Of a DNA stretch of 31,005 nt, positions 1 to 20,757 are shown in pieces. The stretch comes from a virus, in IMG/VR virus record IMGVR_UViG_3300012936_005037, positions 1 through 31,005 of that record. One strand, given 5' to 3'. The notes below the pieces were generated by a model that was not told the DNA's origin, searched no databases, and saw nothing but the letters and a program-made list of their open reading frames with translations. Position 1 is the first letter of the stretch, and the number at the start of each line of letters is the position of its first letter. A program made the position numbers and the translations under genes.

Positions 1-497
1 ACAGTGATTATTTTGAAGGCTTAGATAAATTAGGTCCTGATTGGGTAGAATTATATACACCAACAGTACAAACATTTTTAAACAAAGCAGGATTTAACAA
101 AAATAAAAAATGGAAAGTAGATGTTGATTTATGGTATAATGTAGGTGTTCAAGGTAGTTTTCAAGAAGAACATGATCATCAAGGAGGATATCCAAGTACT
201 CTATACAGTGCTATACATTATTTAATATTTGATCCTAGTGAACACGAATCAACTGTATTTTACAATCCAATGCATCATATGTTTTTACGTAATATGCATC
301 CTTGCAAAGGCTATGAGATGCCAGATGATTGGAACCAACCGTGGCATTTGCCTAAAGTAAAAGAAGGTGATATGGTATTTTTTCCTTCATATGTAAGGCA
401 TAGTGTACCGCATCAAAAAAGTACAAAAGCACGAGCGACTATTGCACTTAATTTAACAATTGGTGATCCTGGTCAAGACTTATTTAAGGATTCATAA
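1..497 (+). CDS. 2OG-Fe(II) oxygenase, N-terminus cut by window edge
   Basis: The reading frame is open from base 3 to the TAA at 495-497, so the start lies left of the window; the ATG at 270 is internal because the iron-binding motif lies upstream of it. The visible 164 residues contain an H-D-H triplet (His codons at 171 and 177), a distal His (399-401) in a context SYVRHSVPH, and an Arg about 11 residues later (432-434) that would bind the 2OG carboxylate. This is the double-stranded beta-helix dioxygenase pattern, closest to the 2OG-FeII_Oxy_5 / TIGR02466 type, which uses HxH rather than HxD. It resembles the next gene throughout (LWYN/GWYN, HDH.GG, GDMVFFPS/GDIVLFPS), so the two are tandem paralogues. 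The substrate is unknown. Its stop overlaps the next start as TAATG. Confidence 0.82.
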   Translation, partial: SDYFEGLDKLGPDWVELYTPTVQTFLNKAGFNKNKKWKVDVDLWYNVGVQGSFQEEHDHQGGYPSTLYSAIHYLIFDPSEHESTVFYNPMHHMFLRNMHPCKGYEMPDDWNQPWHLPKVKEGDMVFFPSYVRHSVPHQKSTKARATIALNLTIGDPGQDLFKDS

Positions 498-1135
498 TGG
501 TAGAAGAAATAAACCCATTTCCAGTATACATATACAAAATGAAATCTACTCGTCATAACGAGATAAAAGATTACCTAATGAAACATGTATATCCAAAATT
601 TAAAGAATCAGGTCCTAATGGTGGTTTACAAAAAATATTTACAGATTATTTACCAGGGACTGGTGCAATGATACACTGGCCTTACTTATATGATAGATAC
701 AGAGAAGATGTTAACACTATATTGTCAAAGGTTGGATTTACCATTAATGATTCATGGGATATAAAAATGAAAGGTTGGTATAATTTTAGTACCGGTAATG
801 ACGAAGAGTGGGTACATGATCATATTGGGGGTGCAACTAACATAAACTACAGCTTTGTTCATTACATTCAATTAGAAAACGAAAAAGATGGTACTATATT
901 TGTAAATCCTAATTATAAACTTATTAGAAGTATCATGCCAACAAAAAATATTAATTATTTGCCTTCTAGTTTTTTTAACGACAGATATCAAGTAGAAGTA
1001 GAAGAAGGAGATATTGTTTTATTTCCTAGTTGGTTAGATCATACTGCACCAAGACATACTACAAATAATTTACGGATAACCACAGCAGTAAATCTAATGA
1101 TGAGATGTAAAGATAATGATCAGGACGGTTTTTGA
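497..1135 (+). CDS. 2OG-Fe(II) oxygenase (TIGR02466-like), partner of halogenase 1
   Basis: 212 residues, full length for a small phage 2OG dioxygenase. The N-terminus (INPFPVYIYK) matches the usual start of TIGR02466-like proteins. Iron ligands seem to be H107 and H109 (V-H-D-H-I-G-G) and H182 (SWLDHTAPRH), with R193 as the 2OG-binding Arg; the GDIVLFPSWLDH block is typical. The enzyme would oxidise a C-H bond using O2 and 2OG in the infected cell; the substrate cannot be read from sequence. An AAGGA lies about 8 bases before the ATG. The start overlaps the previous stop (TAATG) and its own stop overlaps the halogenase start (TGATG), so oxygenase and halogenase are probably translated together. 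The same gene order recurs at 6048-8361. Confidence 0.88.
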   Translation: MVEEINPFPVYIYKMKSTRHNEIKDYLMKHVYPKFKESGPNGGLQKIFTDYLPGTGAMIHWPYLYDRYREDVNTILSKVGFTINDSWDIKMKGWYNFSTGNDEEWVHDHIGGATNINYSFVHYIQLENEKDGTIFVNPNYKLIRSIMPTKNINYLPSSFFNDRYQVEVEEGDIVLFPSWLDHTAPRHTTNNLRITTAVNLMMRCKDNDQDGF

Positions 1136-2658
1136 TGCAAATTTGTATAATAGGCGGGGGCACTGCAGGTTGGTTGTCTGCGTTAATGATATCAAAAGCA
1201 TATCCGCAACACTCTGTTACAGTCATAGAATCTAGTAAAATTGGAATAATAGGTGCGGGCGAAGGTAGTACAAGTGTATTAACATCTTTACTGAATAACA
1301 CTGTCCTAGATATTGGCACAAATTTAGAAGAATTTATTGTACAAACTGGTGCTACTTTAAAATATGGTATAACTCATAAAAACTGGACTACAAAAAAAGA
1401 TCATTCATATTTTGGACCTTTAGGAGGAACACCTACAGCCAGACATGCAAGAGACTGGTTTTTTCTAAATCAAATGGTTTTACAACCATCAAAAATACAT
1501 CACACTACTTTAGAAGGATTATATTTAGATTACGACTTATCAGATTACAAAGATGACAGCTTTGCAGTTTCGCCAGAAGGTGAATTACAATTTTCTTTTC
1601 ATTTTGATGCACACAAAGTAGGACAATATTTTAAGTCTAAAACAGAATTTGTTAAAACAATAGATAGTGTAGTCAAAAAAGTAAATTTGGATTCGCAAGG
1701 TTTTATCACAAGTGTAAATTTAGAAAATGATAAAGTGATTGAGGCAGATTTTTTTATTGATGCAAGTGGATTTTCAAAAGTTTTAATGTCTCATTTAGAT
1801 AATCCTTGGGAAAGTTATTCAAAACATTTACCAGTAAACTGTGCTATGCCTTTTTTACTACCAAATGAAGAAAAAATAAATCCATATACTTTAGCGTATG
1901 CACAAGGTAACGGATGGATGTGGCAAATACCTACAATGGAAAGGCGAGGATGTGGATATGTGTTCTGTGATGATTTCACTACACCAGAAGACGCACAGAA
2001 AGAAATAGAACTTACTTTAGGGCATGATATTGATCCTATAAGAATTTTAAAATTTGATACAGGTAAATTAAAATACAATTGGCGGAAAAATTGTGTAGCT
2101 ATTGGATTATCTAGTGCTTTTGCAGAACCTTTAGAAGCAACTAGTATACACTCCACAATAATGCAATTACTTTATTTGGTGTATAACGGATTATCTGGGT
2201 ACGGAAAACAATATGTACACAATGAAGGCATAGTAAATAATTACAATAATTACACTTCTAAAATATTTGAAAATTATAGAGACTTTTTAAATATACATTA
2301 CATGGCAGGACGTCAAGATACAGAATTTTGGAAGTATATGTCAAGTGAAAAATCTAAAACTGATAAAGTTAATAATTTAATAGAAATTTGTAAACACCGT
2401 ATTCCTAATCAAAAAGATTTTGAATTAATAGACGGCGGTGCAGGATACGACATATGGATTTTTGTAATGGCGGGGATTGGACTTGTAACCCAAGACTTGT
2501 GTAAAAAAGAATTAGAAAATCATAAAACGTTTTTAAACCATCATGCAATGGATGAGTATAAAAATGAAGTAATTTTTGAACATAAGAAAAATCTTAGTTA
2601 TCAAAAATTTATACAGAACATGAAGGAGAAGTACAATGCCAACACCGTTTGTAGTTGA
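1135..2658 (+). CDS. Flavin-dependent halogenase 1 (tryptophan-halogenase family)
   Basis: 507 residues from the ATG at 1135. The FAD-binding motif is GGGTAGW (residues 7-13). The family signature WxWxIP is seen as WMWQIP (261-266). K76 in ATLKYGI aligns by motif with the catalytic lysine of PrnA/RebH (PrnA K79). The FAEPLEATS block (329-337) corresponds to the PLESTG block of PrnA: the Glu (E334) and the chloride-contacting Thr (T336) are kept, but the following Ser and Gly are Ala335 and Ser337. These enzymes use FADH2, O2 and halide to make hypohalous acid, which acts through the lysine. A marine viral member, VirX1 of cyanophage Syn10, has been reported to prefer iodination of many substrates, so tryptophan should not be assumed. 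No flavin reductase is visible here. The C-terminus overlaps the next gene by 23 bases. Confidence 0.92.
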   Translation: MQICIIGGGTAGWLSALMISKAYPQHSVTVIESSKIGIIGAGEGSTSVLTSLLNNTVLDIGTNLEEFIVQTGATLKYGITHKNWTTKKDHSYFGPLGGTPTARHARDWFFLNQMVLQPSKIHHTTLEGLYLDYDLSDYKDDSFAVSPEGELQFSFHFDAHKVGQYFKSKTEFVKTIDSVVKKVNLDSQGFITSVNLENDKVIEADFFIDASGFSKVLMSHLDNPWESYSKHLPVNCAMPFLLPNEEKINPYTLAYAQGNGWMWQIPTMERRGCGYVFCDDFTTPEDAQKEIELTLGHDIDPIRILKFDTGKLKYNWRKNCVAIGLSSAFAEPLEATSIHSTIMQLLYLVYNGLSGYGKQYVHNEGIVNNYNNYTSKIFENYRDFLNIHYMAGRQDTEFWKYMSSEKSKTDKVNNLIEICKHRIPNQKDFELIDGGAGYDIWIFVMAGIGLVTQDLCKKELENHKTFLNHHAMDEYKNEVIFEHKKNLSYQKFIQNMKEKYNANTVCS

Positions 2659-3319
2659 AGATTTATTCGAACTAAATCCAAATAGTGATATTTCTTATCA
2701 CCAAGACTATATGTGTATTGACAACTACTACAAAAATATTGACGAAATACAAAAAGTGTTTTCAACAATGTACGTAGAGTCGTGGAAAATGAGTAAATGG
2801 AGTAGAAATTTTAGAGATTACTATGATTGTAGACCTTGCTTTGCTAATTGGGAGCCAGATGAAGATAAAATTAATGCAAGAATGGAGCCTATGAATCAGT
2901 TAATAGGAAGAGAATTAGGCATTAATGACATTGCTATAGAACGTAATCTTTCTTTTAATGTTTTTAAACATAATAAAACTGGTTTGCCAAAAAATATGCA
3001 ACACCATCCGCATTATGATACTGATATGGTAAACATACTTGTGTATCTTGACGAACATAGTGAACATGGTGGTACAGCACTTTATGAAAATGTAGATATT
3101 GTAAACAAAGAAGCTTCTAATTTAATTATAGATATTTCAAAATATGATATAAAAGAAATCATTCCTGGAAAACCTAATAGATGTGTGATTTTTAATGGTA
3201 ATCAATTACACGGTGCATACATCGAAAATAACGATATATACTACAATAACTGGAGAATTACTCAAGCAACTATTATTAAAAATGCTAGAGCAATGATGGA
3301 ATTACAAGGTGATGTGTAA
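2636..3319 (+). CDS. DUF6445-like 2OG-Fe(II) oxygenase
   Basis: 227 residues. The ATG at 2636 lies inside the end of halogenase 1 and is chosen because a strong Shine-Dalgarno (AAGGAGAA, 2623-2630) precedes it. A likely iron site is H126-Y-D128 (HHPHYDTDM) with the distal H192 (FNGNQLHGAY) and R207 (NNWRIT). HGGTALYE and the final NWRITQATII strand are typical of DUF6445-type proteins, which in marine bacteria often sit beside tryptophan-halogenase genes. It keeps the classical HxD pair, unlike the HxH oxygenases around it. The function is unknown; hydroxylation of a peptide or small molecule is possible. The stop TAA overlaps the next start as TAATG. Confidence 0.75.
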   Translation: MPTPFVVEDLFELNPNSDISYHQDYMCIDNYYKNIDEIQKVFSTMYVESWKMSKWSRNFRDYYDCRPCFANWEPDEDKINARMEPMNQLIGRELGINDIAIERNLSFNVFKHNKTGLPKNMQHHPHYDTDMVNILVYLDEHSEHGGTALYENVDIVNKEASNLIIDISKYDIKEIIPGKPNRCVIFNGNQLHGAYIENNDIYYNNWRITQATIIKNARAMMELQGDV

Positions 3320-4005
3320 TGGTAGGTAGAGGCGGAGTTGTACCCGGCACAAACATGCTGGAAAATAGCGGAATTTACATAAATGAATTAAATCCTTTTG
3401 TTTTTAACACACTTAAAAAAGATTGTTTAGAAAATGTAGATGATATACAAAAACAATTAAAAGATCGCACAGGCGATTTATTACAGATGTTTAAGATTGA
3501 TGCTCCAAAAGAAATGTACTTTAAGCAGCCTACCAAAAGTAGGGACGGATTAACTAGAGAACTGTTGCAAATTTGCAACGAATTAATGGACGCATATCCT
3601 GAGTATCTTACAAAAATAGGATACTATATGGAGGAAAACAGTTTAGTAGATTTGTATGTGGAAAGGTATTGGATTAATTATCAATTACCTGGAGAGTTTG
3701 TACCTTTACATCAACATTCTGGTGTTTTTAGCTTTGTAGTTTGGGTCAGTTTACCAGAGGTACAAGTAAAGAAAAACATTCCATACAACGGAATGAAAGG
3801 ATATCAAGGCGATTTTGAATTTACGTATCCTGATATTTTAGGCAGTTTGCGTAGTATTAGACTAGCCCAAGATAAATCTTGGGAAGGAAAAATTTGTGTG
3901 TTTCCAGCAGGATTACATCACCAAGTTTATCCTCACTTTGAAGATGATATAAGAATTACTGTTTCGGGTAACATTAGAGCAAAATTGACAGAGGTTAAAA
4001 AATAA
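3319..4005 (+). CDS. 2OG-Fe(II) oxygenase, HxH type
   Basis: 228 residues. Motifs: H131-Q-H133 (PLHQHSG), a distal His (H200 or H201, AGLHHQVYP) and R212 (DDIRITVSGN), giving the jelly-roll dioxygenase layout. Two aromatic strands (FSFVVWVSLP) follow the first motif, as expected for the core sheet. The N-terminal 80 residues are mostly helical and charged and match nothing I recognise. Similar HQHSG oxygenases are common in T4-like marine phages, but the substrate is not established. An ATG at 3355 (Met13) is an alternative start; 3319 is preferred because it forms the TAATG overlap used elsewhere in this operon, although the AAGGTG ahead of it is only moderate. Confidence 0.78.
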   Translation: MVGRGGVVPGTNMLENSGIYINELNPFVFNTLKKDCLENVDDIQKQLKDRTGDLLQMFKIDAPKEMYFKQPTKSRDGLTRELLQICNELMDAYPEYLTKIGYYMEENSLVDLYVERYWINYQLPGEFVPLHQHSGVFSFVVWVSLPEVQVKKNIPYNGMKGYQGDFEFTYPDILGSLRSIRLAQDKSWEGKICVFPAGLHHQVYPHFEDDIRITVSGNIRAKLTEVKK

Positions 4006-4664
4006 TGATTCCTATACAGTTTGTATGTGAAGATCCTCAAATTGTAAAACAGTTTAGTCCTAAACCTATTTGTGAAGATTATCCAAAATGGTTAGACAAA
4101 ACAAACAGTAATGAGAATGAATTTAGTATCAAAAACTGTGGTCCAGCTATGGATTGGATTAATTCAGGTTACATAATTTATAATGCTTGGGAATATACAC
4201 TTAAAGAAAAAATAGTAAATTTTAGAAAAGGTACAGAAATTGAAAGTCAAAATCCAAGACCAGAAATAAGAAAAATTAATCCTTCTATATATTCTGGGTT
4301 ATGTGCTCCTATACCAAACGGTCCGCACAGTTATTTTAGGCTTGAAACAGATTTTAAAGTTGTAACACCTCCTGGTTATAGCTGTATGGTGATGCAACCT
4401 TTTTATGATTTTAACAATAAGAGTTACACACTGTTTCCTGGCATTATTGACACTGACAAACATGATTGGGTTATAAGCACAATGGGTGTTGCACATGATA
4501 AAGAAACAGTTGTATGGCCAGGTGACAGAGTTTTACAAATTATTCCATTTAAAAGAGAAGAATGGAAAATGGAAGTACGTAATGAAATGTATGTTAGCCA
4601 ACTATTTCATTACATAAGAGGAGCATACAATTTACTTTTTAGAGCAAACAAGGTATACAAATAA
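4005..4664 (+). CDS. Phage protein of unknown function, tandem paralogue A (possibly DUF6065-like)
   Basis: 219 residues, no signal peptide or membrane segment. It shares with the next gene the blocks TPPGYSC (121-127), a QPF strand, FP.I.DTDKHD (D149-D154) and PFKR..WKME near the C-terminus, and an N-terminal P.W......E..........C.P..D....GY.I pattern. The layout (a central PPGYS block, then the DTD motif) reminds me of DUF6065, a small uncharacterised family, but I cannot confirm this. No 2OG-oxygenase HxD/H..H pattern is convincing; H153 and the invariant Asp residues could still bind metal. It lies between oxygenase and halogenase genes and overlaps both neighbours as TAATG, so it probably acts in the same process. 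Confidence 0.7.
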   Translation: MIPIQFVCEDPQIVKQFSPKPICEDYPKWLDKTNSNENEFSIKNCGPAMDWINSGYIIYNAWEYTLKEKIVNFRKGTEIESQNPRPEIRKINPSIYSGLCAPIPNGPHSYFRLETDFKVVTPPGYSCMVMQPFYDFNNKSYTLFPGIIDTDKHDWVISTMGVAHDKETVVWPGDRVLQIIPFKREEWKMEVRNEMYVSQLFHYIRGAYNLLFRANKVYK

Positions 4665-5353
4665 TGGATAACTTAATAAAATTTGTATCTTATGATAAAT
4701 CAGCAGAGCAATTTTTTCCTCCTTTACCTATGAGTAAAGTTGTCCCCCAATGGTATAAAGATACCGATTTAGAATGTGAACATAAAGCGACTGACCAGAT
4801 TGTACCTACTATAAGAAAATGTGTTCCTGTAAGAGATTATTTAACTTGCGGCTATGTAATAAGAAACCCATACGAAGTTGATATAAAATACGAACCTGAT
4901 GAGGAAGGAATTGTAGGTGTTTCTACAGTATGTCCTGTTGATGAATATATATCTCAACATCCTTGGAAACAGGCTCCTACGATAATGCAAGGTATTAAAA
5001 ATCATTATTTTAAAGTGGCAAATGTATGGAAAGTAATTACACCTCCTGGTTATAGTTGTCATTTTTATCAGCCTTTCTTTCATTTGCAAGAAGACTATAG
5101 AATGTTTCCTGCAATAGTTGATACTGATAAACACGATGATGCAGTAAATTTTGTAGGCTTAGGTATTAAACATCAATTCAAAATACCAGCAGGAGCTCCA
5201 TTGATGGTTGTTTATCCGTTTAAAAGACAAGATTGGAAAATGGAGACTGAATATAAAGATTATTCAAGACAAAATAGTTTTAAGTTTTTTATTAAAAAAA
5301 TGTGGCATGGTAATTATGCAAAACTATTTCATAGCAGGAAAAAATTTAGATAG
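4664..5353 (+). CDS. Phage protein of unknown function, tandem paralogue B (possibly DUF6065-like)
   Basis: 229 residues. Closely follows paralogue A: TPPGYSC (126-132), QPFF, MFPAIVDTDKHD (D153-D158) and PFKRQDWKME are all present. It has the clearest N-terminal version (KCVPVRDYLTCGYVI), where A has NCGPAMDWINSGYII. The last 30 residues are rich in Lys, Phe and His. The start overlaps the previous stop (TAATG) with an AAGG about 14 bases upstream. The function is unknown. Keeping two similar copies side by side suggests a multi-subunit or two-substrate role, which is inference only. Confidence 0.7.
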   Translation: MDNLIKFVSYDKSAEQFFPPLPMSKVVPQWYKDTDLECEHKATDQIVPTIRKCVPVRDYLTCGYVIRNPYEVDIKYEPDEEGIVGVSTVCPVDEYISQHPWKQAPTIMQGIKNHYFKVANVWKVITPPGYSCHFYQPFFHLQEDYRMFPAIVDTDKHDDAVNFVGLGIKHQFKIPAGAPLMVVYPFKRQDWKMETEYKDYSRQNSFKFFIKKMWHGNYAKLFHSRKKFR

Positions 5354-5355
5354 AT

Positions 5356-6051
5356 ATGTTTAGTATTTTTAATAGAACTCCAACAATAACTTTAGATTGT
5401 TTTACTCCTATTACAGATTTGCCTGATTTATTTCCTATAAAAAAGGCTTCTGAAATTATGCCTAATTGGTGGAAAAATTTAAAACCAACAGTTGAATTTA
5501 AGGGCATAAACAGAGGCAGTTTAAAAATGTGTCCAGGAGTAACAGATTATTTTAAATCAGGTTTTATAATTACATGTTGGAGAGATTTTATTATTGAAGT
5601 AAACAGTGGTATACCAAATGTTATTCCTGAAAACACTGCCGACTTACATAATCCTATTCAATGGGGTGACGAAGCTCTACAAGGATATGCACATATTAAA
5701 TTAATAAGTCCTTGGAGGATAAGAGAAAAAACAGGGTGTAAATTTTTATTTACAAATACATTTTGGCATAATAATACACATCAATATTTTGTGCCCAATG
5801 GTGTAGTTAATTACAAATATCAACATACAACTAATGTAAATTTAGTTGTAAATAAAAATGCTTTTCCTAATAGATTTGAATTAAATGCTGGAGAACCATT
5901 TGTGCATTGTTTGCCTATATCAGATAAAAATATTAAAATAAAAATGCATGTAGTAAGCGATGAAGAATTTGCTAAAACTGATGTATATCATTTTACTTTC
6001 TCAGGTAATTATTACAAATCTAAAAAATTTAAGGAGGAAAATAAAAAATGA
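5356..6051 (+). CDS. Divergent tandem paralogue C of unknown function
   Basis: 231 residues. The N-terminal half aligns with paralogues A and B (P.WW, KMCPGVTDYFKSGFIITCW matching C.P..DYL..GYVI), but the PPGYSC and DTDKHD motifs are absent. In their place are SPWRIREKTGCKFLFTN and a VPNGVVNYKYQHT stretch. It is therefore either a diverged copy with a changed active site or a fold relative with another role. It begins two bases after the stop of B. Its own TGA overlaps the next ATG (ATGA). The C-terminus is lysine-rich and the coding sequence there (AAGGAGG, 6031-6037) doubles as the ribosome binding site of the next gene. Confidence 0.66.
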   Translation: MFSIFNRTPTITLDCFTPITDLPDLFPIKKASEIMPNWWKNLKPTVEFKGINRGSLKMCPGVTDYFKSGFIITCWRDFIIEVNSGIPNVIPENTADLHNPIQWGDEALQGYAHIKLISPWRIREKTGCKFLFTNTFWHNNTHQYFVPNGVVNYKYQHTTNVNLVVNKNAFPNRFELNAGEPFVHCLPISDKNIKIKMHVVSDEEFAKTDVYHFTFSGNYYKSKKFKEENKK

Positions 6052-6683
6052 TCGAATGGCTTTTTCCAATGCCGGTTTATTGTCATAAGCCAACATTTGA
6101 TGAAATTTTTCTTGTTCAGAATGAAATAAAAAAGAACTTACCTAATATTATAGAAAATGATAATTGGGACAAACCAGAAGGCTGGGAAGATGAAGTTGAA
6201 ACAAACATAGGGCATAGATGGCATTCTATTGCAGATTATGGCTTGACAAATTTAGAACAATATATACAAAAGCATACTGACATATATAGGAACGAACTTG
6301 AACCATTTATGAATAACGATATATTCCTTAGTCATAGTTGGTTTAACTTAAACAAGGCAGGCCATAGTCAAGAATGGCATGCACATACAGACAGCTTTAT
6401 TAGTGGAGTATACTACTACCAAACTAACGGACAAGATGGTGATTTAATGTTTAAAAACACTAATCAGTTCGCACAAAGAGGATTTTTTCCAACTGGAAAA
6501 AAAGTACCAGAGAAGGTTTTTTACTCACCCGTTGAAGGAATGATTTTGCTCTTTCCTGGATGGATGGATCACCGGGTCCAGGTAAATAAAACTGAAGATA
6601 CAAGGATAACAGTAGCATTTAATTGGCTTACAGTTAACACATTAAGAAAAGGATTGATAAAAGATGAGAGGACCAATAAATAG
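6048..6683 (+). CDS. 2OG-Fe(II) oxygenase (TIGR02466-like), partner of halogenase 2
   Basis: 211 residues, the clearest TIGR02466-type oxygenase of the window. It starts IEWLFPMPVYCHK. The first ligand motif is H111-A-H113 (EWHAHTDSF) followed by ISGVYYY; the distal His is H175 (FPGWMDHRV) and R186 (DTRITVAFN) binds 2OG. It starts after a perfect AAGGAGG with 10 bases spacing. Its end overlaps halogenase 2 by 20 bases. Like the 497-1135 gene it directly precedes a halogenase, so the pair probably arose by duplication of an oxygenase-halogenase unit. The substrate is unknown. Confidence 0.9.
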   Translation: MIEWLFPMPVYCHKPTFDEIFLVQNEIKKNLPNIIENDNWDKPEGWEDEVETNIGHRWHSIADYGLTNLEQYIQKHTDIYRNELEPFMNNDIFLSHSWFNLNKAGHSQEWHAHTDSFISGVYYYQTNGQDGDLMFKNTNQFAQRGFFPTGKKVPEKVFYSPVEGMILLFPGWMDHRVQVNKTEDTRITVAFNWLTVNTLRKGLIKDERTNK

Positions 6684-8361
6684 AATTATTATAGCTGGCG
6701 GTGGATCAGCTGGATGGATGACCGCTGCTGTATTATCACAGCAATTTCCGGAGAAAGAAATTGCACTAGTTGAATCACCAGATATACCAGTAATTGGTGT
6801 AGGTGAATCAACATTGGGTACTATTAATAGTTACCTTGATATGCTTAATTTAAAAGATGAAGACTGGATGAAAGAATGTCAAGCTACATATAAGTTAGGC
6901 ATCAAATTCACAGATTTTTACAAAAAAGGTGACGCTTATTATTATCCTTTTGGTATTAAAGATCATCAAAATACACAAGCTGGTTGTACTGACTGGTATG
7001 TAAAGAAAACTCTCAATCCTGATACACCTGTAAATGACTTTTACGAAAGTTTTTACAGTAGTATGCCTTTTATCTATGACAACAAAATTTATGATAATGA
7101 AGATGGTCAATTACCAAACTTCAGTTGGAAGTCTGATGTTGCTTACCATGTAGATGCAATCCAATTTGGTCATATGTTAAGAGATAAAATTGCATTGCCA
7201 AATGGTGTTGTTCATGTAAAAGCTAATATTGTAAAAACAAATATTGAAATGGAAGGTAACATTGAATCTATAAAACTAGATAATGGTGATGAATTAGAAG
7301 CAGATCTTTATATTGATTGCACTGGTTTTAGATCTTTACTACTTGGTGAAGCAATGGATCAATATTTTGAAGACTGGTCAGACTGGTTACCTAACAGAAA
7401 TGCTATTACTTGTCATGTTCCTTATACCGATAAAGATAAAGAAATGGAAAATGTTACCAACTGTACAGCATGGGATCACGGTTGGTGTTGGAATATTCCG
7501 TTATACAATAGAATTGGTGCAGGATATGTATATGACAAAAAATATATAACACAAGAAGAAGCAGAAGCTGAGTTCAAAGCATATTTGGACAGTGATAGAA
7601 TGGCACATCATGATCCTGAAAGATCTAAAAAAATTGAAAAATTTGATCATATAGATATTAGAAATGGTGTATATCATAAATGCTGGACACAAAATGTTGT
7701 AGGCGTTGGACTTTCTTATGGATTTATTGAACCTTTAGAATCTACTGGATTACTAAGTGTACAAGAAATACTTTTAAGATTGTGCGAAACACTACATAAT
7801 CCACAAGTGAATAGAGCTCATGTTGATCATTTTAACTATGTTGTAAAACAAATTATGACTGGTTTTAAGTATTTTGTAGCTTATCATTACACTTTAAGCT
7901 CAAGAAGAGACACAGAGTTTTGGAGAGCTGCAGGAGAATTTATTAGAATGGATGCAAGACTAGATGATCCTAAATTTAATAATTCAGCAGAAAGTTTACC
8001 AGCTGTAATGGCAAATGCATTATTGCAATCACATGAATTGAGAGGAGATCTTTCTATGGGAGGTATTCCTGATATTTTTGTTGGGAATAGATGCATTCCA
8101 TCTAACAAAACACAACTGACTGTGTTGGAAAATTTAATGATTGCAAGAAACGGATCTGCTCCAGAAATTTACACAAAGCAGTTGCAAGATTACTGGGATC
8201 AGAAAAAAGATTATATTCAGACGCTTGCAAATGACTCGCCAACACACTATCAATATTTGAAAGAAAAAATATTTGATGGTAAAGATTTTGATATGGCTGT
8301 GAATAAAAAGCAGGAAGAAACTCCTCCTGCTAAAAAAAGTAAATCTAAAAAATCTAAATAA
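6664..8361 (+). CDS. Flavin-dependent halogenase 2 (tryptophan-halogenase family)
   Basis: 565 residues. FAD motif GGGSAGW (12-18); GVGESTLGT (45-53); candidate catalytic K77 in ATYKLGIKF; WCWNIP (274-279); FIEPLESTG (354-362) with E359, S360, T361 and G362 all as in PrnA. It is thus the more canonical of the two halogenases and about 58 residues longer than the first. The last 20 or so residues are a Lys/Ser/Pro tail (PPAKKSKSKKSK), absent from halogenase 1 and probably disordered. The expected reaction is FADH2-dependent halogenation of an electron-rich substrate; a flavin reductase would have to come from the host or elsewhere in the phage. It is the last gene of the plus operon, and its TAA abuts the stop of the opposite gene with no spacer. 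Confidence 0.93.
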   Translation: MRGPINRIIIAGGGSAGWMTAAVLSQQFPEKEIALVESPDIPVIGVGESTLGTINSYLDMLNLKDEDWMKECQATYKLGIKFTDFYKKGDAYYYPFGIKDHQNTQAGCTDWYVKKTLNPDTPVNDFYESFYSSMPFIYDNKIYDNEDGQLPNFSWKSDVAYHVDAIQFGHMLRDKIALPNGVVHVKANIVKTNIEMEGNIESIKLDNGDELEADLYIDCTGFRSLLLGEAMDQYFEDWSDWLPNRNAITCHVPYTDKDKEMENVTNCTAWDHGWCWNIPLYNRIGAGYVYDKKYITQEEAEAEFKAYLDSDRMAHHDPERSKKIEKFDHIDIRNGVYHKCWTQNVVGVGLSYGFIEPLESTGLLSVQEILLRLCETLHNPQVNRAHVDHFNYVVKQIMTGFKYFVAYHYTLSSRRDTEFWRAAGEFIRMDARLDDPKFNNSAESLPAVMANALLQSHELRGDLSMGGIPDIFVGNRCIPSNKTQLTVLENLMIARNGSAPEIYTKQLQDYWDQKKDYIQTLANDSPTHYQYLKEKIFDGKDFDMAVNKKQEETPPAKKSKSKKSK

Positions 8362-8963: not shown

Positions 8964-8971
8964 TATTTATG
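8964..8971 (-). promoter_or_regulatory. T4-type late promoter-like element CATAAATA
   Basis: On the minus strand the bases read CATAAATA, matching the T4 late consensus TATAAATA except at base 1, the position that is relaxed in marine T4-like phages (NATAAATA). It lies 14 bases upstream of the ATG at 8949, and the Shine-Dalgarno falls between. It overlaps the stop codon of the upstream fibre gene. Confidence 0.6.
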
Positions 8972-9911
8972 CAACTAGAAAGCCGTCAAAGTGAGTGTGA
9001 GCACCGTGGAATCTAGTTTGATTGTTGTGCCAGTACACCCTTACGTCAACATATTGTCCTGCATTTAGGTATGTTCCTAAACTCATATGTGTTCCGTTCG
9101 GATAGTATCTCTGTGCATTACTGTGACCAAATATTCCATGTGGTGTTCTTCCTCCAACCATAGCATTACCACCATTAATACCAAAACTCATGTGATAATA
9201 TCCTTGGTTGTTGTTTCTGTCATTTCTTGCATATGTGTTGAAATTAAATTGATAAAAGCCTGCAACAGGTGCTGTAAATCTTCCATTACCATTGCTAAAA
9301 TTAGATCCACCTCTTTGTTCGTGTGCATAACTCATGTTTCCGTTAAGTGATCTCCATCTAATGCCACCATAAGAGTTAGCATATCTCCATCCACTTGTGC
9401 CAGATGCATGAAATGCTGGAGTTGCGGGTCTTGTAACTGTGTCATTGCTGTTAACTTGTAAACCCGTTGTTCCGCCTGCTCTTAAATAAACTGTGTTTCC
9501 AGAAAAAGATATTCCAGTATTTGCATCACCGTCTTTTTGTAGTGCTGCACTACTACTGTTACCTGCAGGCAAAGTTAATGTACCTGAATGAGTACCTCCT
9601 TGCTTATTTAATGGAGCATTACCTAAGTTGGTTGCAATCGCGCCACTACCTAATTTGGAGCCTGCAATAGCTGCCGCATTACTAATATCTGAACTTGCAA
9701 TGGTTCTATAAGTAACTGTCTTTGATGAAATATCAACTGTGCTACTAAGTTGTGTTGTGCCTACAGCACCATCTAAAATTTTATCTGTTTCAATAGCGCC
9801 TGCAGCTAATTCACTAGTTTCAACCGAATTAGAAGCTAAGTCGGTGTTTTGAACCTGTCCGTCTATAATTGCATCGCTATCTATTCTTTTAAAACTATCA
9901 TATGTTGCCAT
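8967..9911 (-). CDS. Tail-fibre protein with C1q-like tip, copy 3
   Basis: 314 residues. An N-terminal region of about 95 residues is built of short AV..(T/S).(L/I) repeats ending in the shared KTVTYR block, typical of trimeric fibre stems. A DANTGISFSG...LRAGGTTGL block follows, then GWRYANSYGG. From about residue 200 a jelly-roll segment with TAPVAGFYQFN matches the C1q/TNF-like signature (a Pro-x-x-Gly-x-Tyr strand). The protein ends TRFHGAHTHFDGFLVA. It is likely a distal fibre or receptor-binding tip. It is one of three tandem paralogues; here the GGRTPHG loop is retained. The ATG follows AGGAACAG. Confidence 0.82.
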   Translation of the reverse strand: MATYDSFKRIDSDAIIDGQVQNTDLASNSVETSELAAGAIETDKILDGAVGTTQLSSTVDISSKTVTYRTIASSDISNAAAIAGSKLGSGAIATNLGNAPLNKQGGTHSGTLTLPAGNSSSAALQKDGDANTGISFSGNTVYLRAGGTTGLQVNSNDTVTRPATPAFHASGTSGWRYANSYGGIRWRSLNGNMSYAHEQRGGSNFSNGNGRFTAPVAGFYQFNFNTYARNDRNNNQGYYHMSFGINGGNAMVGGRTPHGIFGHSNAQRYYPNGTHMSLGTYLNAGQYVDVRVYWHNNQTRFHGAHTHFDGFLVA

Positions 9912-9920
9912 TTCTGTTCC

Positions 9921-10844
9921 TTATCCTACCAAATATCCTGCCCACAAGCTGTGGTTACCATGATGTCTGCCTTGATTACCACCAAAATATGGTCTAGGTG
10001 TTATATACTGTCCAGCATTAAGATATCTAACATAAGCAACCATAATGCCTGGAGCATAGTTATTTCTAAGTCCATATGCATACATAGAGTGAGGTGTACG
10101 TCCAGTTACCATTTGGCCATTACCTCCGTTCAGTGCTATGTTCCAATGTGTATATCCGTTTGTTGAATTTGAATCATTATACCAATATGTTTGCAAGTAA
10201 CAGTAATAATAACCTGCTGTAGGCACTGTGACTCTACAGTTGTTAGAAGTGGTTATTCCTCCTTGTGTTGAATAGTTCCAACCCATGTCGTCTAATTCTC
10301 TCCAACTGCTAGGTCCGCCATATGAGTTTGCATATCTCCAACCGCCTCTACCTGATGCCATCCATGCAGGTTTAGCTGATTCTACTGGTCTTCCTGAACT
10401 ATCATAATATAATCTGTCACTTCCGCCTTCACGTAAGCTAATTGTTTGGCCACTGAAAACTATACCGCTACTTGAATTTCCTGATCTTATCAATGCGCCA
10501 TCTTGCATTGTAAGTTGACCGCCCATTGTATCTCCAGCACTATTAACTGGAGTGTATCCAAGATTTGCTACAGCTGCTCCACTAGCCATATTTGCGCCAG
10601 TTATTGCACCTGGGCCTAAATCACCGTCAACTATAGGTCTATATGTCACTGTCTTACCAGACAAATCAATTGAGCTTGCAAGTTTATTTGAATTGACTGC
10701 ACCTGTATCTATATCTGCAGATTGGACTGTTGAATTTGCTATTTTTGCTGTATCAACAGCATTTGTAGCAACGTCTCCTGCTGTCAGAACATTATCTACT
10801 ATTGCTTCTCCAGATATTTTCTTAAAACTACTATATGATGCCAT
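9921..10844 (-). CDS. Tail-fibre protein with C1q-like tip, copy 2
   Basis: 307 residues with the same layout as its neighbours: MASYSSFKK start, AV/ANS stem repeats, KTVTYRPIV, NLGYTPVN, LREGGSD, GWRYANSYGG, then a C1q-like jelly roll (TVPTAGYYYC) and the C-terminus GRHHGNHSLWAGYLVG. The TGRTPHS loop matches copy 3. Divergence is highest in the loops of the last 100 residues, as expected for receptor-contact surfaces. It is separated from copy 1 by only three bases and preceded by AGGATAAG. It probably forms homotrimers, possibly mixed trimers with the other copies. Confidence 0.82.
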   Translation of the reverse strand: MASYSSFKKISGEAIVDNVLTAGDVATNAVDTAKIANSTVQSADIDTGAVNSNKLASSIDLSGKTVTYRPIVDGDLGPGAITGANMASGAAVANLGYTPVNSAGDTMGGQLTMQDGALIRSGNSSSGIVFSGQTISLREGGSDRLYYDSSGRPVESAKPAWMASGRGGWRYANSYGGPSSWRELDDMGWNYSTQGGITTSNNCRVTVPTAGYYYCYLQTYWYNDSNSTNGYTHWNIALNGGNGQMVTGRTPHSMYAYGLRNNYAPGIMVAYVRYLNAGQYITPRPYFGGNQGRHHGNHSLWAGYLVG

Positions 10845-10847
10845 AAC

Positions 10848-11795
10848 TTATCCTACTAATTGTCCACTAAAAATTTGATGTCCAGCATGTAATCTTCCGT
10901 TGCCTGTTGCAAAGTAATTGTAAATACTGCAATACTGTCCTGAATTTAGATACATTATCATATTATAACACGCACCGTCATCGTGACTGTTTGTGTTTCC
11001 ATGCATGTTGATCACATATGGGTTTCTACTACTTGGTGAAATGGTTACACTGCCATTTCTAGCCCACATGTGATGTTGATAACTGTTTGTGCTATTTGTG
11101 TTGTTATAGTAATAGTACATTGTGCTGAAATGATACCATCCACTTACAGGAGCTGTGTATCTTCCATTGCTGTTACTGAAATTTGATCCGCCATATTGAT
11201 GTGACACGCTCCAACTCATTGCACTGCCTAATTCTCTCCAACCTGTACCTCCGAATGAGTTAGCATATAACCATCCAGGAGTACCACATGCGGCAAAAGC
11301 AGGTTTATTTGGTTCTCGTACACGGCCACTGCTGTCCATTACCATTACATCGGTACCGTTTACACTAAATCTTAAATTGTCAGATCCAGTCATGTACATG
11401 CCTGTATTTGAGTCACTGCCTTTTATTGATGGTGAACCTGCACTACCGTCTGTCAATGCTAAATTTCCAGTCATTGTACCAGAAGTTGCAGATAACGGTG
11501 TGTATCCTAAATTAGTTGTGGCTGCTCCTGGAGCAAGTTTGTTACCTGCTATCGCTGCACTATTACTAATGTCTGCATTTACAATAGGTCTATATGTAAC
11601 AGTTTTTGCTGATATATCTAATGTGCTTGCAAGTTGATCAGCACCGACTTGACCAGTGGCAAATTTTCCGCCAGTAACTGCATTATTCTGTATTTCAGCA
11701 GTATCAATTGCGCCTGGACCTAAATCGCTTGCTTCAATTGTGCCATCAATAATAGCTTCTGTGTCAACTTTTTTAAAACTGCTGTAACTTGCCAT
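10848..11795 (-). CDS. Tail-fibre protein with C1q-like tip, copy 1
   Basis: 315 residues. The N-terminal 110 residues (MASYSSFKKVDTEAI, KTVTYRPIV, NLGYTPLS) are nearly interchangeable with copies 2 and 3, while the tip differs most: the GRTPH loop of the others is replaced by SSRNPYV, and the end is GRLHAGHQIFSGQLVG. TAPVSGWYHFS is the C1q-like strand. A conserved phage-fibre block (SDSNTGMYMTG, LRFSVNGTDVMVMDSSGRV) lies in the middle. It is likely the first of three alternative or co-assembled receptor-binding tips. The start follows AAGGAACAG. Confidence 0.82.
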   Translation of the reverse strand: MASYSSFKKVDTEAIIDGTIEASDLGPGAIDTAEIQNNAVTGGKFATGQVGADQLASTLDISAKTVTYRPIVNADISNSAAIAGNKLAPGAATTNLGYTPLSATSGTMTGNLALTDGSAGSPSIKGSDSNTGMYMTGSDNLRFSVNGTDVMVMDSSGRVREPNKPAFAACGTPGWLYANSFGGTGWRELGSAMSWSVSHQYGGSNFSNSNGRYTAPVSGWYHFSTMYYYYNNTNSTNSYQHHMWARNGSVTISPSSRNPYVINMHGNTNSHDDGACYNMIMYLNSGQYCSIYNYFATGNGRLHAGHQIFSGQLVG

Positions 11796-18500: not shown

Positions 18501-18760
18501 TGTATATCAGTACGAGGAGTAAGTGAAGTTTTTGCATTGTAAACTGTTCTAGGTTGTACGTTTACTGATCTTAATTCATCACCCATAATACAACAATCAG
18601 CTGGAACAATAATTGGCAGTACTTCTTGATATCTTCCAGTGCTTACTCGTATTAATGTGTTTCTTCTTACTTTTGCGGGAATATTATTACTGTTACCTGC
18701 TGTAATTGCATCAGTAACAATTTTTCCTAACGCTTGAACTGTTTCATAAATTGTTGCCAT
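12512..18760 (-). CDS. Giant tail-fibre protein, 2082 residues, second half of a split fibre
   Basis: Layout: residues 1-70 are the end of a helical repeat (DAITAGNSNNIP) plus beta-helix strands with MGDELRS (59-65); about 190-920 hold repeats of roughly 162 residues marked by C211, C372, C536, C696 and a weaker C917 in a K-C-x-x-D motif; about 985-1130 continue a right-handed beta-helix (DGLRGDL, DPGWGP, SPYVQNV, VSNDFTQV, ATNGNNSYG); about 1447-1685 carry six BNR/Asp-box repeats (S.DG.TWT type); about 1897-1965 carry the fibre C-terminal module (GHDFLDIGTGNF, DQDGNFRVGGLF). From 985 on it aligns with the 2111-residue fibre. It lacks that protein's carbohydrate-binding-like N-terminus, which is encoded just upstream in the 665-residue gene with a TAATG overlap. 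It is probably a virion adhesin; no catalytic sialidase residues are evident. Confidence 0.85.
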   Translation of the reverse strand: MATIYETVQALGKIVTDAITAGNSNNIPAKVRRNTLIRVSTGRYQEVLPIIVPADCCIMGDELRSVNVQPRTVYNAKTSLTPRTDIHFSVRALERLEAVIGDIVDGSTVTKTSVGPTPNTRTQVQSWPYAETATVKPAVKKLARNIKRRVDVGLAEKREINYPKSYNMTSPAEEYGKHRDLVLLNKKFIQSEITGYITDNYPSLKYSKTKCKQDVGFILDSLAYDLSYGGNWQSVKAGEAYFEGTNLQINSSEKTATLAAYGYLKELVQTVGRGATVSPILNDDSETQITGTYLGGNLTTASFAASRVQDVINIITNGSGTVAITKPSLSSVSAGLQGAYDNLRDNMDVIGEKTIDFIGENFGTFKYKPAKCRRDLNKIIRDTAFDVAFGTNFNAVYTGLSYMRETVSNTYLLGSQKVQTIGAIRNTRDVLSAAVTEDGSSASGSSGADTRLKAAFNEVVNIINSGTPGTAAPGDGVVDAITFPSPVGVDQNRVDAKDNLIANRTYITSEIIAWIEVQIAGAVGIWNGFTFDREKCRRDVGQIVDAMTYDILYGGTHATTRVAESYFENGVQLYGAGPQTAASYARLATVLSQIVQEQAVTTSAGNSETQTTPGTPASATEGAEVDAKMQIIEDVITAGNTNSLPAAVFPNTSSQATAEYHNAYLNIETDKNDAIKATIQYITDTYSGFKYDHAKCTRDLKFIAEAAGYDWMLGTNAASVFAAYSYLRAPSKKVLGDQKTATIAANEYARTLAVTYLGGNSTAINGLNDTWQWVEDIIWSGSAEGGNDAVSDIEVWNGYRQLELNKDFIVDECIAHVDNFFEQTVTSIDTSNNRLTIADTGMLYVGMPLYFKQGSDSTDVLTNANLLASPTIYYVRQITGDTTFTVSDQLYGNEVTLNEYGEGFKVCKQYDYNVDLCKRDLTRYIDAIKWDLQWPQQWVRNYSVSDSENNTTEITIYLPAVYKTKLASRYYVNSVNGSQEEDMYYLRNNTGLRLMTVDGLRGDLGPANAFGTSRPSAGAYASLDPGWGPKDERVWISARSPYVQNVTTFGFAATGQRIDGALHDGGNDSIVSNDFTQVISDGIGAHILNNGRAELVSVFSYYAHIGYLAESGGRIRATNGNNSYGTFGSVAEGVDPDETAVTAIVDNKFQYNATIGKVFTDAADEIYTLEYSHAGNAYTEAVIDIFGAGTSENLVMEDFRDEAVSQVRITEIDDSSGNPDAVAGGTGYLVVSNTAQTGSGTSITLAATDGNSSTAYPGMAIYITAGAGAGLYARIDTYNAGSKVATVVKESDGTAGWDHVIPGKTYTNPNSSSTYQIEPRATFAAPLKVNGFASSAITSGTWTDVHMVETSAQYTNVAVTTNSDGLGATFDITRNGSKYYASLNSAGSGYTRLDTITIPGTSVGGATTANDITITVTAINGTGGITGFDFDGLGRKGVLIALPSSGTGAQRSLDGLTWTAETLATSASWTNQTHGLIDDGSTTYRAGYAIVAGYDGGTTKVNYSTDTETWTAPGAQPALTTTSTADIAFGQITASTGRFVLIADNDRDVAYSDDGGQSWTTTTNALPSTGYTAIKFGQGKFVAVKSGTQNVSHSPDGITWTEVATGLPATHAWTDIEYGNGRFFCIASDNVQGAFSLDAGATWTASTITTDGGALPRRIKYGQGMFVVTTTDTDAVSYSEHGVYWPTQHTVQNSTNGYSAISFVDNDSDPKFVCIQSGASATAAITTKLGATAKGRAGVANEKVFEVRLYDPGSMYGSGAPALTITDPNNVNDVLFTVRNGDGVLAQPTFVNRGSSFITATAEVNDNNSNGYADFFQAGNFVAVRQLSTVPVNGSNVVFDSLPNKVFKLVNTVSRIGTLDGTYTAFLQLSPDMEIEDTPAHGDNVTLRIRYSQVRLTGHDFLDIGTGNFDDTNYPNEVYGDPVNPPDQTKETTESNGGRVFYTATDQDGNFRVGGLFSIEQATGVATLNAEAFNIAGLQELTLGEVTLGGNSASVTEFSTDPFFTANSDSVIPTQRAIKAYIEAQIGGGQASLIVNSVTAGDIFINTNQITTVTGSPINIKANINFQGAVVGVPLAYNYFFR
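13700..14430 (-). repeat. Six BNR/Asp-box repeats in the 2082-residue fibre
   Basis: Each unit ends in a variant of S-x-D-x-G-x-x-W: SLDGLTW, STDTETW, SDDGGQSW, SPDGITW, SLDAGATW, SEHGVYW. GRF/GKFV strands precede several of them. This suggests a beta-propeller. Confidence 0.78.
15980..18160 (-). repeat. Four to five Cys-Arg/Lys-Asp repeats of about 162 residues
   Basis: The conserved cysteine codons lie at 18128-18130, 17645-17647, 17153-17155, 16673-16675 and (degenerate) 16010-16012. Spacings are 161, 164, 160 and 221 residues. A unit contains F.Y...KC.RD...I..A..YD...G, an A..Y/SY helix, a LG.Q..T..A helix and an II..VI..G segment. Confidence 0.75.
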
Positions 18761-20757
18761 TAGTAGCCTCCTCCGCCACCGCCGCCACCGCCGCCGGATC
18801 CACCTCCGCCGCCGTTGCTAATTGATGTACCGCCATAACTTGCTCCTGCTGTGCTTTCGTATACTGCGTCTGCTTGTTTGCCTAACGCTGTATCTATATA
18901 TTGTGTTACAATAGCTGTTGAATTATCACCGTTAGTTGTTTGATAATTTACAGCTGGTGCTTCATTGTTTAAAACTTTTTGTATCAAGGTAATTCCATAA
19001 TTAATACTTGCTACTGTTTCTGCTTCTTGCCCTAAAGTGTAAAACTGTCCAGGCTCTGTTACATATTTTAATGCCGCAGCTCTTGATCTTTCATTACCGC
19101 CATGTGCAAGATCCCACATAAAGGCGTCAATTATGTAGCCCATATCTCTTTCACATTTTGCACTATCGTATGTAAAACTTGTTGTGAATGGTGATGTATT
19201 ATTTGCAATTTGGTAATCTGTCCATTCAACTATTTCTCTTTGTATAAATCTTCTGTTTAATTCTAAAAGTTTGATTGCACTAGGTGCTTTTGTACCTTTG
19301 TCTATTTGTTCTGTAGCATATCTTATGCTTCTAAATGGTCTGTCAATATTTTTTCCGTAGGTCGGTGATGGACTATCAACACCATGTTCAGCTACATAGT
19401 AAACATCATCAGCAGATTCAAGTGTTGTCCATTCCGGAACACCAGTATTGGATACTTGTAATATTTGTCCATCTGAACCTATAGGTAATCTTGTTGGTCC
19501 TGCTCCACCATAGTATACTAAATCACCTTTAGTAGTAAGCACTGAGGTTTCGCTACCTATAACAAATGTATTCCAGTAGGTTCCAGTTACATCTTGATCT
19601 GGTCTTGAATTTTCATTACCGCCATCAAATCCTCCTGCTGGTGTGCCAACTGATGAATAATCGTCGCCTTCTGATATGTGATTTTGCACACAAAAATATG
19701 AGTTATCTCCATACCGTACAACATCACCAACAAAATATTCTCTATCATCTAACCACACACCTCTCCAGTTAATTCCTGAAGTAAGTTTTTCCCAATATGT
19801 AGCATTTGGTGGTTTTTGGCTTGTATGATCTTGTATGGCTCTATATGTATGTCCGCCTAATCTTACAACATCACCTACATAATATTCATACGCTGTTGAA
19901 TCATCACCCCAAGTTCCTACAAATCTTAATCCTTCTGAAAATAAATTCCAGTCTGCTGCCGAACTTGTCGGGGCTGTATCAGTATTATCTCTTAGTGCAA
20001 TATAAGTATTGCCGCCATATTTTACTATATCTCCAATTTGATAACTTGCAGAATATACCCATTCTGATTCATATTGAAATCCGTCTACAAATTTTTCCCA
20101 ATTTGCAGAATCTGCAGCAAATGTTGAAGCCGCTGTATGATAAGCTGTTGCAATCCATTGGTTGGCGCCAAATCTTACTACATCATTTACTTTATAGCGT
20201 GTGCCTGTTGCCCACAATCCTTTGTAATCAAAACCTTGATTGAACAATGTCCATTTAGAAAGATCATTTTCTAAACCTAATGCTGTGCTGTCTGCAGATA
20301 TATGATGTGAATTACAAACGTATGTGCTGCCGCCGTATTTGACCAAGTCGGCTACTTTATAATCAAAACTAGTTTGCCAATCGCCTTTCCAATCAACGCT
20401 TTCTGCGTAAACTTCCCAATTAGCTGAATCAGCTTCTAATCCTGTAGTAGAGTCTGATGCTGATGTATGTACAGCTTGTGCTATATAAAGTCTACCACCA
20501 TACCTAACAATATCATCGTATACATATTTTACTTGTGGTTGCCAATCACCTTTCCAAGTTTGTCCTTCACTTACTAAATTCCATTTTGAAGGTGATATAT
20601 CTAGATCTGTGTAAAAATCTGCATTACTAGTGTGTCCAATTACACAAATATAAATTTTACCTGCATAATACACAACGTCATCTTGGTAATATACCGTTGA
20701 TGATCCCCAGTTGTTTTTCCAAACAAATCTTAATCTACCTAGTTTAAATTCAGCCAT
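18760..20757 (-). CDS. Fibre protein with seven carbohydrate-binding-like repeats and poly-Gly C-terminus
   Basis: 665 residues. Residues 1 to about 375 hold seven units of about 50 residues of the form W.G.W....Y..GD.V.YGG..Y......H......W, resembling the chitin-binding CBM5/12 fold. A fibre block TTKGDLVYYGG...LP.GSDGQILQVS follows, then the start of a beta-helix (DDVYYVAEHGVDSP, DRPFRSIRYAT) and one Cys-Arg-Asp repeat (C535, KCERDMGYIIDAFMWDL). The protein then breaks off into Gly5-Ser-Gly10-Tyr. The missing remainder of that repeat and helix begins the next gene. The late-promoter-like GATAAATA lies 15 bases ahead of the start and CGGAG serves as ribosome binding site. Likely role: glycan binding on the host surface; the split suggests it assembles with the 2082-residue protein. 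Confidence 0.83.
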   Translation of the reverse strand: MAEFKLGRLRFVWKNNWGSSTVYYQDDVVYYAGKIYICVIGHTSNADFYTDLDISPSKWNLVSEGQTWKGDWQPQVKYVYDDIVRYGGRLYIAQAVHTSASDSTTGLEADSANWEVYAESVDWKGDWQTSFDYKVADLVKYGGSTYVCNSHHISADSTALGLENDLSKWTLFNQGFDYKGLWATGTRYKVNDVVRFGANQWIATAYHTAASTFAADSANWEKFVDGFQYESEWVYSASYQIGDIVKYGGNTYIALRDNTDTAPTSSAADWNLFSEGLRFVGTWGDDSTAYEYYVGDVVRLGGHTYRAIQDHTSQKPPNATYWEKLTSGINWRGVWLDDREYFVGDVVRYGDNSYFCVQNHISEGDDYSSVGTPAGGFDGGNENSRPDQDVTGTYWNTFVIGSETSVLTTKGDLVYYGGAGPTRLPIGSDGQILQVSNTGVPEWTTLESADDVYYVAEHGVDSPSPTYGKNIDRPFRSIRYATEQIDKGTKAPSAIKLLELNRRFIQREIVEWTDYQIANNTSPFTTSFTYDSAKCERDMGYIIDAFMWDLAHGGNERSRAAALKYVTEPGQFYTLGQEAETVASINYGITLIQKVLNNEAPAVNYQTTNGDNSTAIVTQYIDTALGKQADAVYESTAGASYGGTSISNGGGGGSGGGGGGGGGGY
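18766..18813 (-). repeat. GC-rich Gly5-Ser-Gly10 coding tract
   Basis: Sixteen codons made of GGN (GGC, GGT, GGA) with one TCC, a sharp GC island in AT-rich sequence, ending one Tyr codon before the stop. Glycine-rich runs are known in T-even adhesins (gp38), where they form packed polyglycine helices. Confidence 0.9.
19560..20757 (-). repeat. Seven tandem CBM5/12-like units in the 665-residue protein
   Basis: Recurring WKGDWQ, Y.V.D.V.YGG..Y.C and (S/A)..W.....G signatures at a period of about 50 codons. Unit boundaries are by eye. Confidence 0.8.

Follow-up and report, generated by a model that had tools for sequence, protein, structure and literature searches.

A halogenase and oxygenase gene cluster linked to tandem adhesin genes: a possible tailoring island for receptor-binding proteins in T4-like marine phages

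The IMG/VR virus record IMGVR_UViG_3300012936_005037 is a linear fragment of 31,005 bases and was analysed over its whole length (hereafter the window). At its left end, the plus strand carries a cassette of ten closely packed enzyme-type genes (3–8361; intergenic gaps of −23 to +2 bases), which adjoins three tandem tail-fibre genes. We propose that this cluster represents one form of a mobile island that tailors the receptor-binding proteins of T4-like marine phages, and assign this reading a probability of about 0.5. It is based on what computation shows: which genes are present, that the halogenase motifs are intact, that ancestries are separate, and that the cassette has a conserved order, is physically linked to adhesin genes and in one case was replaced together with them. 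A more specific claim is tentative, with the odds somewhat against it: that the phages use this dedicated, co-inherited island to halogenate and hydroxylate their own adhesins at the receptor-binding heads, and that this is the native role of the halogenase VirX1.

The first-pass annotation of this DNA had described a nine-gene operon at 497–8361, with two oxygenase–halogenase pairs separated in part by three tandem paralogues. These elements were all found again on the plus strand, and a tenth gene at 3–497 was added. The gene order is OG1, OG2, HalA, DUF6445, OG3, U1, U2, U3, OG4 and HalB, where OG stands for proteins resembling 2-oxoglutarate (2OG) oxygenases, Hal for halogenases and U for the three paralogues, which belong to phrog_7084. 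On the minus strand, the remainder of the record codes mainly for tail-fibre and baseplate-like proteins similar to those of a pelagiphage and of T4-like cyanophages, and the source is a marine T4-like phage. The cassette and the adjoining fibre genes are composed as follows.

3–497, plus strand: OG1, PF13759 2OG-Fe(II) oxygenase-like protein, 5′ end cut by the left end of the record (Pfam E 6e-14; HxH..H..R)
497–1135, plus strand: OG2, PF13759 2OG-Fe(II) oxygenase-like protein, upstream partner of HalA and sister of OG1 (Pfam E 1e-10)
1132–2658, plus strand: HalA, flavin-dependent Trp_halogenase in a clade of its own, motifs intact (PF04820 E 3.6e-94)
2636–3319, plus strand: DUF6445 protein, oxygenase-like (PF20043 E 6e-9; phrog_1644; HxD..H..R by inspection)
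3319–4005, plus strand: OG3, PF13759 2OG-Fe(II) oxygenase-like protein in a clade of its own (Pfam E 1.5e-8)
4005–4664, plus strand: U1, divergent DUF6065 protein, putative dUTPase fold (phrog_7084)
4664–5353, plus strand: U2, divergent DUF6065 protein, predicted dUTPase-like fold (phrog_7084; trimeric dUTPases as top structural matches, Z about 12)
5356–6051, plus strand: U3, degenerate U paralogue that lacks the DTD and KR motifs (phrog_7084)
6048–6683, plus strand: OG4, TIGR02466/PF13759 oxygenase-like protein, upstream partner of HalB (PF13759 E 7e-21; TIGR02466 above cut-off)
6664–8361, plus strand: HalB, VirX1-type flavin-dependent halogenase, motifs intact (PF04820 E 1.7e-110; best solved match VirX1)
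8967–9911, minus strand: fibre paralogue 1, candidate substrate by its linkage to the cassette, aromatic-rich C-terminal head
9921–10844, minus strand: fibre paralogue 2, candidate substrate by linkage
10848–11795, minus strand: fibre paralogue 3, candidate substrate by linkage (PHROG tail-fibre matches)

The three fibre paralogues (8967–11795) lie convergent with the cassette. A scan was made with the fibres only, and a contig was considered testable if it extended 600 bp or more beyond the fibre genes. In all 27 testable contigs a halogenase lies beside the fibres, followed by OG and U genes as far as the contig runs; six of these contigs had been missed by halogenase scans. Among the further contigs from the scan, one ends inside HalB (L029/L232) and eight stop before the question can be judged. 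The fibre heads give only weak, sub-threshold matches to C1q (paralogue 1) and TNF (paralogue 2). Their combined content of Trp, Tyr and His is 18%, compared with 4–12% in large tail proteins, and they contain hardly any Lys.

A different, Gly-rich adhesin is present in phages of the Syn9/Syn10 type, where two to three tandem copies lie directly upstream of a Hal-(Hal)-U-OG series (Syn10, S-RIM44, P-TIM40 and Sf-FR1). A VirX1-type halogenase is found within about 5 kb of this adhesin in 18/18 phage records that carry it. In contig L030 the Gly-rich adhesin lies upstream of an OG-Hal pair, and window-like fibre N-termini are fused there to Syn10-like heads. Both of these adhesins are uncommon among 79 loci with U genes only, none of which has a Gly-rich head and four of which give weak fibre matches.

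In one pair of S-RIM44 isolates, the adhesins and most of the enzymes are replaced together. KX349294 contains three adhesins along with two halogenases, one U gene and several oxygenases, and KX349297 has at the same place a single OG gene, a small gene and an unrelated fibre. The exchanged segment is bordered by a diverged tail-fibre gene on one side and by the 95–98% identical gp13 side (right flank) on the other. The adhesins, being both linked to the cassette and replaced jointly with it, are therefore candidate substrates for the tailoring enzymes.

The gene order of the cassette was found again in about 20 other contigs, and intact OG1 homologues occupy the same place in the relatives L003–L005. 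The order OG-Hal / OG3-U1-U2-U3-OG4-HalB is maintained, with overlapping genes, at 40–60% protein identity. The ratio of nonsynonymous to synonymous substitution rates is 0.06–0.32 for every cassette gene tested, with synonymous sites near saturation, and the genes compared are under purifying selection. Given the recurrent gene order and these low ratios, the cassette is not a chance assembly. No nucleotide near-match of the cassette was found in annotated phages, and a search for a late-promoter motif upstream of it gave nothing consistent.

Both halogenases are intact as judged from their FAD-binding, WxWxIP and Lys/Glu motifs. HalA and HalB score 316.6 and 370.4 bits against PF04820 (cut-off 21), and each retains GGGxxGW, WxWxIP (WMWQIP and WCWNIP, respectively), the Lys region (LKYGI and YKLGI) and EPLE[AS]T. 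HalA probably starts at ATG 1135 rather than TTG 1132. The best solved match of HalB is VirX1 (6qgm; E 6e-113, 39% identity), which is closer than PrnA, RebH or Thal. In a tree of 83 halogenases, HalA and HalB fall into different supported clades. HalB belongs to the VirX1 (CPUG_00131) clade, with a support of 99 (36 rows) in this tree and 100/100 in a smaller, more careful one. HalA lies outside the VirX1 clade, and cellular halogenases group on HalB's side of the tree, apart from HalA.

HalC, present downstream of HalB in several relatives, is a true tandem duplicate (HalB+HalC clade 100/100). In the smaller tree, one clade of HalA, HalB and HalC rows was rejected by the approximately unbiased (AU) test (p 3e-66), as was one clade of all phage halogenase rows (p 3e-4). 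The trees thus place the window halogenases in two lineages of independent origin. HalA is an optional member: it is missing from the closest relatives, L003 and L004, although their HalB is about 80% identical and the neighbouring genes are kept.

Two variant forms were seen among related loci. A shortened halogenase-like flavoprotein of about 403 residues, lacking WxWxIP and possibly not a halogenase, is encoded between HalB and HalC (L014 12146–13357, L017 12176–13387, L018 12188–13396 and L025 11525–12739). The first halogenase of the Syn10, S-RIM44 and P-TIM40 pairs has WVW[NT]VP instead of WxWxIP and EPLESN instead of EPLEST (L051 8482–10005, L050 8506–10005 and L048 8521–9990), and may differ in activity from VirX1.

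All four OG proteins exceed the Pfam cut-off of 27 bits for PF13759 (OG1 52.7, OG2 42.4, OG3 35.4 and OG4 75.0). Their putative iron triad reads HxH..H..R rather than the classical HxD/E..H plus Arg, as in 143 of 161 homologues, and for this reason they are best named 2OG-oxygenase-like. The solved relatives of OG4, 3bvc and 2rg4, are uncharacterised. The first-pass annotation had called both halogenase-paired oxygenases TIGR02466-like with a shared N-terminal FP.PVY motif. The assignment holds for OG4 (75.9 bits, cut-off 62.5) but not for OG2 (24.6), and OG1 and OG3 are also below the cut-off (44.1 and 16.6). The motif is approximate, the two N-termini reading NPFPVY and FPMPVY.

The same annotation explained the two pairs by duplication of an ancestral oxygenase–halogenase pair within the operon. 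The pairs are indeed alike in gene arrangement and overlaps, each halogenase gene being overlapped by an upstream PF13759 oxygenase gene. However, OG2 groups with OG1 in two trees (support 99 and 90/88), OG3 forms a clade of its own, and a clade of OG2 and OG4 is rejected (AU p 0.00018). Together with the separation of HalA from HalB, these results leave pair duplication practically dismissed. The adjacency itself is conserved: of 71 distinct phage-like halogenase genes, 36 have an oxygenase gene directly upstream (≤60 bp), compared with 0 of 18 chromosomal ones. The outcome for the earlier account is thus split, with adjacency upheld and shared ancestry not. Its multi-step tailoring system stands as a conserved multi-enzyme cassette, for which tailoring is the function that we infer.

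U1–U3 give no match to Pfam DUF6065 (PF19541) at the cut-off of 26.6. A profile of the U proteins aligns with DUF6065 at an hhalign probability of 99.3 (E 1e-20) and finds many cellular DUF6065 proteins, and the sequences in L027, L039 and L041 are intermediates joining the two groups. By these comparisons U1–U3 are divergent DUF6065 proteins and not a wholly unknown family. The AlphaFold2 model of U2 has a predicted local distance difference test score (pLDDT) of 88.5. Its 50 best rows against the PDB are all trimeric dUTPases (Z 9.8–12.1), the best with a root mean square deviation of 2.0–3.5 over about 120 residues; Foldseek by itself gives a weaker match (best E 3e-3). The U proteins are thus predicted to share the trimeric-dUTPase fold.

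The sequence-profile match to dUTPase is modest (probability 76), with motif 3 aligned to the conserved DTD (DTDKHD to IDSDYQG). Inspection did not reveal the Asp of motif 1, the Arg-Ser of motif 2 or the Gly-rich motif 5. With only motif 3 of the five catalytic motifs recognisable, U1–U3 are not ordinary dUTPases. Since the other motifs are unrecognisable and U3 lacks both DTD and KR, the U proteins may serve in binding or as a scaffold, perhaps forming a heterotrimer. One U protein per fibre copy was rejected as a rule, as L241 has four U genes and three fibres.

U genes are frequent in viral contigs (at least 597 stretches), often adjoining OG genes and without halogenases. A scan with a 12-row U alignment gave seven matches, several of them in phage tail-gene contexts. 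In the haloarchaeal tailed viruses HSTV-2 (L053 7902–8771) and HRTV-7 (L054 7902–8792), a lone U homologue stands beside thymidylate synthase, with no halogenase nearby. Three cellular DUF6065 neighbourhoods (L227–L229) showed by eye no halogenase or OG gene and offered no functional clue.

The proposed island would unite tandem fibres or adhesins, halogenases of independent origin, HxH-type oxygenase-like proteins, DUF6065-like proteins of the dUTPase fold and a DUF6445 protein. The enzymes would most likely alter side chains of newly made adhesin heads, both aromatic ones and others (Tyr, Trp and His). The halogenases would act on the heads via flavin-derived hypohalous acid, and the oxygenases would hydroxylate side chains there. 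The DUF6065-like proteins, possibly heterotrimeric, would be subunits for binding or presentation. The active site of VirX1 is large and open and takes bulky aromatics (PMC8407142).

Several observations weigh against this proposal. Adhesin modification is deduced from linkage and not from a modified residue. The contigs are partly near-identical, so that the 27 and 18 linked cases are not independent counts. In the window lineage, cassette and fibres lie on opposite strands, and accessory genes can enter the region next to the fibres in T4-like phages. The fibre fold prediction (pLDDT 52) is too poor to use for a fold search, and a dUTPase fold would fit a nucleotide-like ligand as well. VirX1-type halogenases also occur in other settings, by recombination genes in S-B64 (L269 8986–10557) and by psbA in S-MbCM6 (L270 8998–10440), neither with adhesins or U genes.

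The enzymes might instead make or modify a small halogenated and hydroxylated metabolite during infection, the nearness of adhesins marking an insertion hot spot. VirX1 halogenates many free aromatic compounds (PMC8407142), and the cyanophage halogenase has been treated as an auxiliary metabolic gene, with an antibiotic-like role proposed for PrnA (PMC9964418, PMC2984593). The halogenases of S-B64 and S-MbCM6, unlinked to adhesins, would suit such a role. However, no core biosynthetic gene of the nonribosomal peptide synthetase or polyketide synthase type and no transporter or other export gene was seen in the loci examined, and free-standing metabolism would not be expected to be linked to two adhesin head types or to be replaced jointly with them. 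We regard a metabolite product as the main rival reading, less likely than adhesin tailoring.

The variable gene number (1–4 Hal, 3–4 U and 1–9 OG across loci), the optional HalA and the insertion-prone regions known in T4-like phages (PMC2984593) would suit separate accessory genes piling up at a hyperplastic tail locus, with no single pathway. The long-maintained order, the overlapping genes and purifying selection argue against such accumulation and make it improbable. A role in modifying nucleotides or phage DNA, in which the U proteins would bind deoxynucleotides, is suggested by the predicted dUTPase-like fold, by the U homologues beside thymidylate synthase and by the S-CREM1 U gene, which carries the annotation 'triphosphate nucleotidohydrolase'. 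The missing dUTPase motifs speak against it, and the U genes of the tailed phages examined are mostly in tail regions with OG genes and not with DNA metabolism; we consider this role very improbable.

Phages are already known to carry halogenases, double halogenases and 2OG clusters. The adhesin linkage and the DUF6065/dUTPase-fold component are undescribed in the papers found, none of which contains 'DUF6065'; this is weak evidence, as most subscription papers lay outside the search. To our knowledge, published substrate ideas for viral halogenases, VirX1 included, rest on pyrrolnitrin biosynthesis in other bacteria. The linkage and joint replacement provide a specific substrate hypothesis for the cultured phages Syn9, Syn10, S-CREM1 and S-RIM44. 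If adhesins are halogenated, they would be the first enzymatically halogenated virion proteins that we know of. Chemical diversification of receptor-binding proteins would then be a new layer of phage–host recognition, and biocatalysis would gain a set of halogenases and oxygenases that act on peptides or proteins.

Two further observations concern other sequences. At 18760–20757 on the minus strand, the window encodes a tail protein with seven carbohydrate-binding modules of the CBM_5_12 type (Pfam E 3e-36), which suggests a polysaccharide-binding fibre. A metagenome-assembled genome labelled Maricaulis (G003) includes five contigs with halogenase-OG(-U) clusters (C88, C70, C134, C37 and C158), which are probably phage sequence binned with the host.

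The closest known system is the VirX1 locus of Syn9 and Syn10, which shares with the window a VirX1-type halogenase, a DUF6065-like U gene, several PF13759/DUF6445 genes and adjoining tandem adhesins. VirX1 is CPUG_00131 of Syn10, the second of two adjacent halogenases; its gene overlaps CPUG_00132 and is followed by the U gene and several OG/DUF6445 genes. P-TIM40 and S-RIM44 resemble Syn10 in the double-halogenase arrangement, and a table from 2010 lists two copies of prnA for Syn9 (PMC3037559). Viral halogenases are therefore not known as single genes only, as had been assumed in the first-pass annotation. In the window, two distant halogenase lineages are represented by one copy each, beside three U paralogues and C1q/TNF-like heads, whereas Syn10 has two HalB/VirX1-side halogenases back to back, one U gene and Gly-rich heads. 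The window cassette is convergent with the fibres, whereas the Syn10 genes are all co-directional.

In the pelagiphage HTVC008M, a PF13759-type oxygenase gene likewise overlaps the halogenase start, but the single halogenase lies between terminase subunit genes, and no U gene was found in the 21 kb examined. The free-tryptophan halogenases PrnA, RebH and Thal share PF04820 and the catalytic motifs with the window enzymes, which have no antibiotic pathway genes nearby. Tandem Trp-halogenase clusters linked to TonB receptors in Alphaproteobacteria (L224–L226) also contain several halogenases, and two of the three include a Cupin_8/JmjC-type oxygenase gene. Unlike the window, they are chromosomal, have an outer-membrane receptor as partner and showed no PF13759 or U gene. 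As a cellular parallel, these clusters likewise couple halogenases to a surface protein, though their halogenases belong to different clades.

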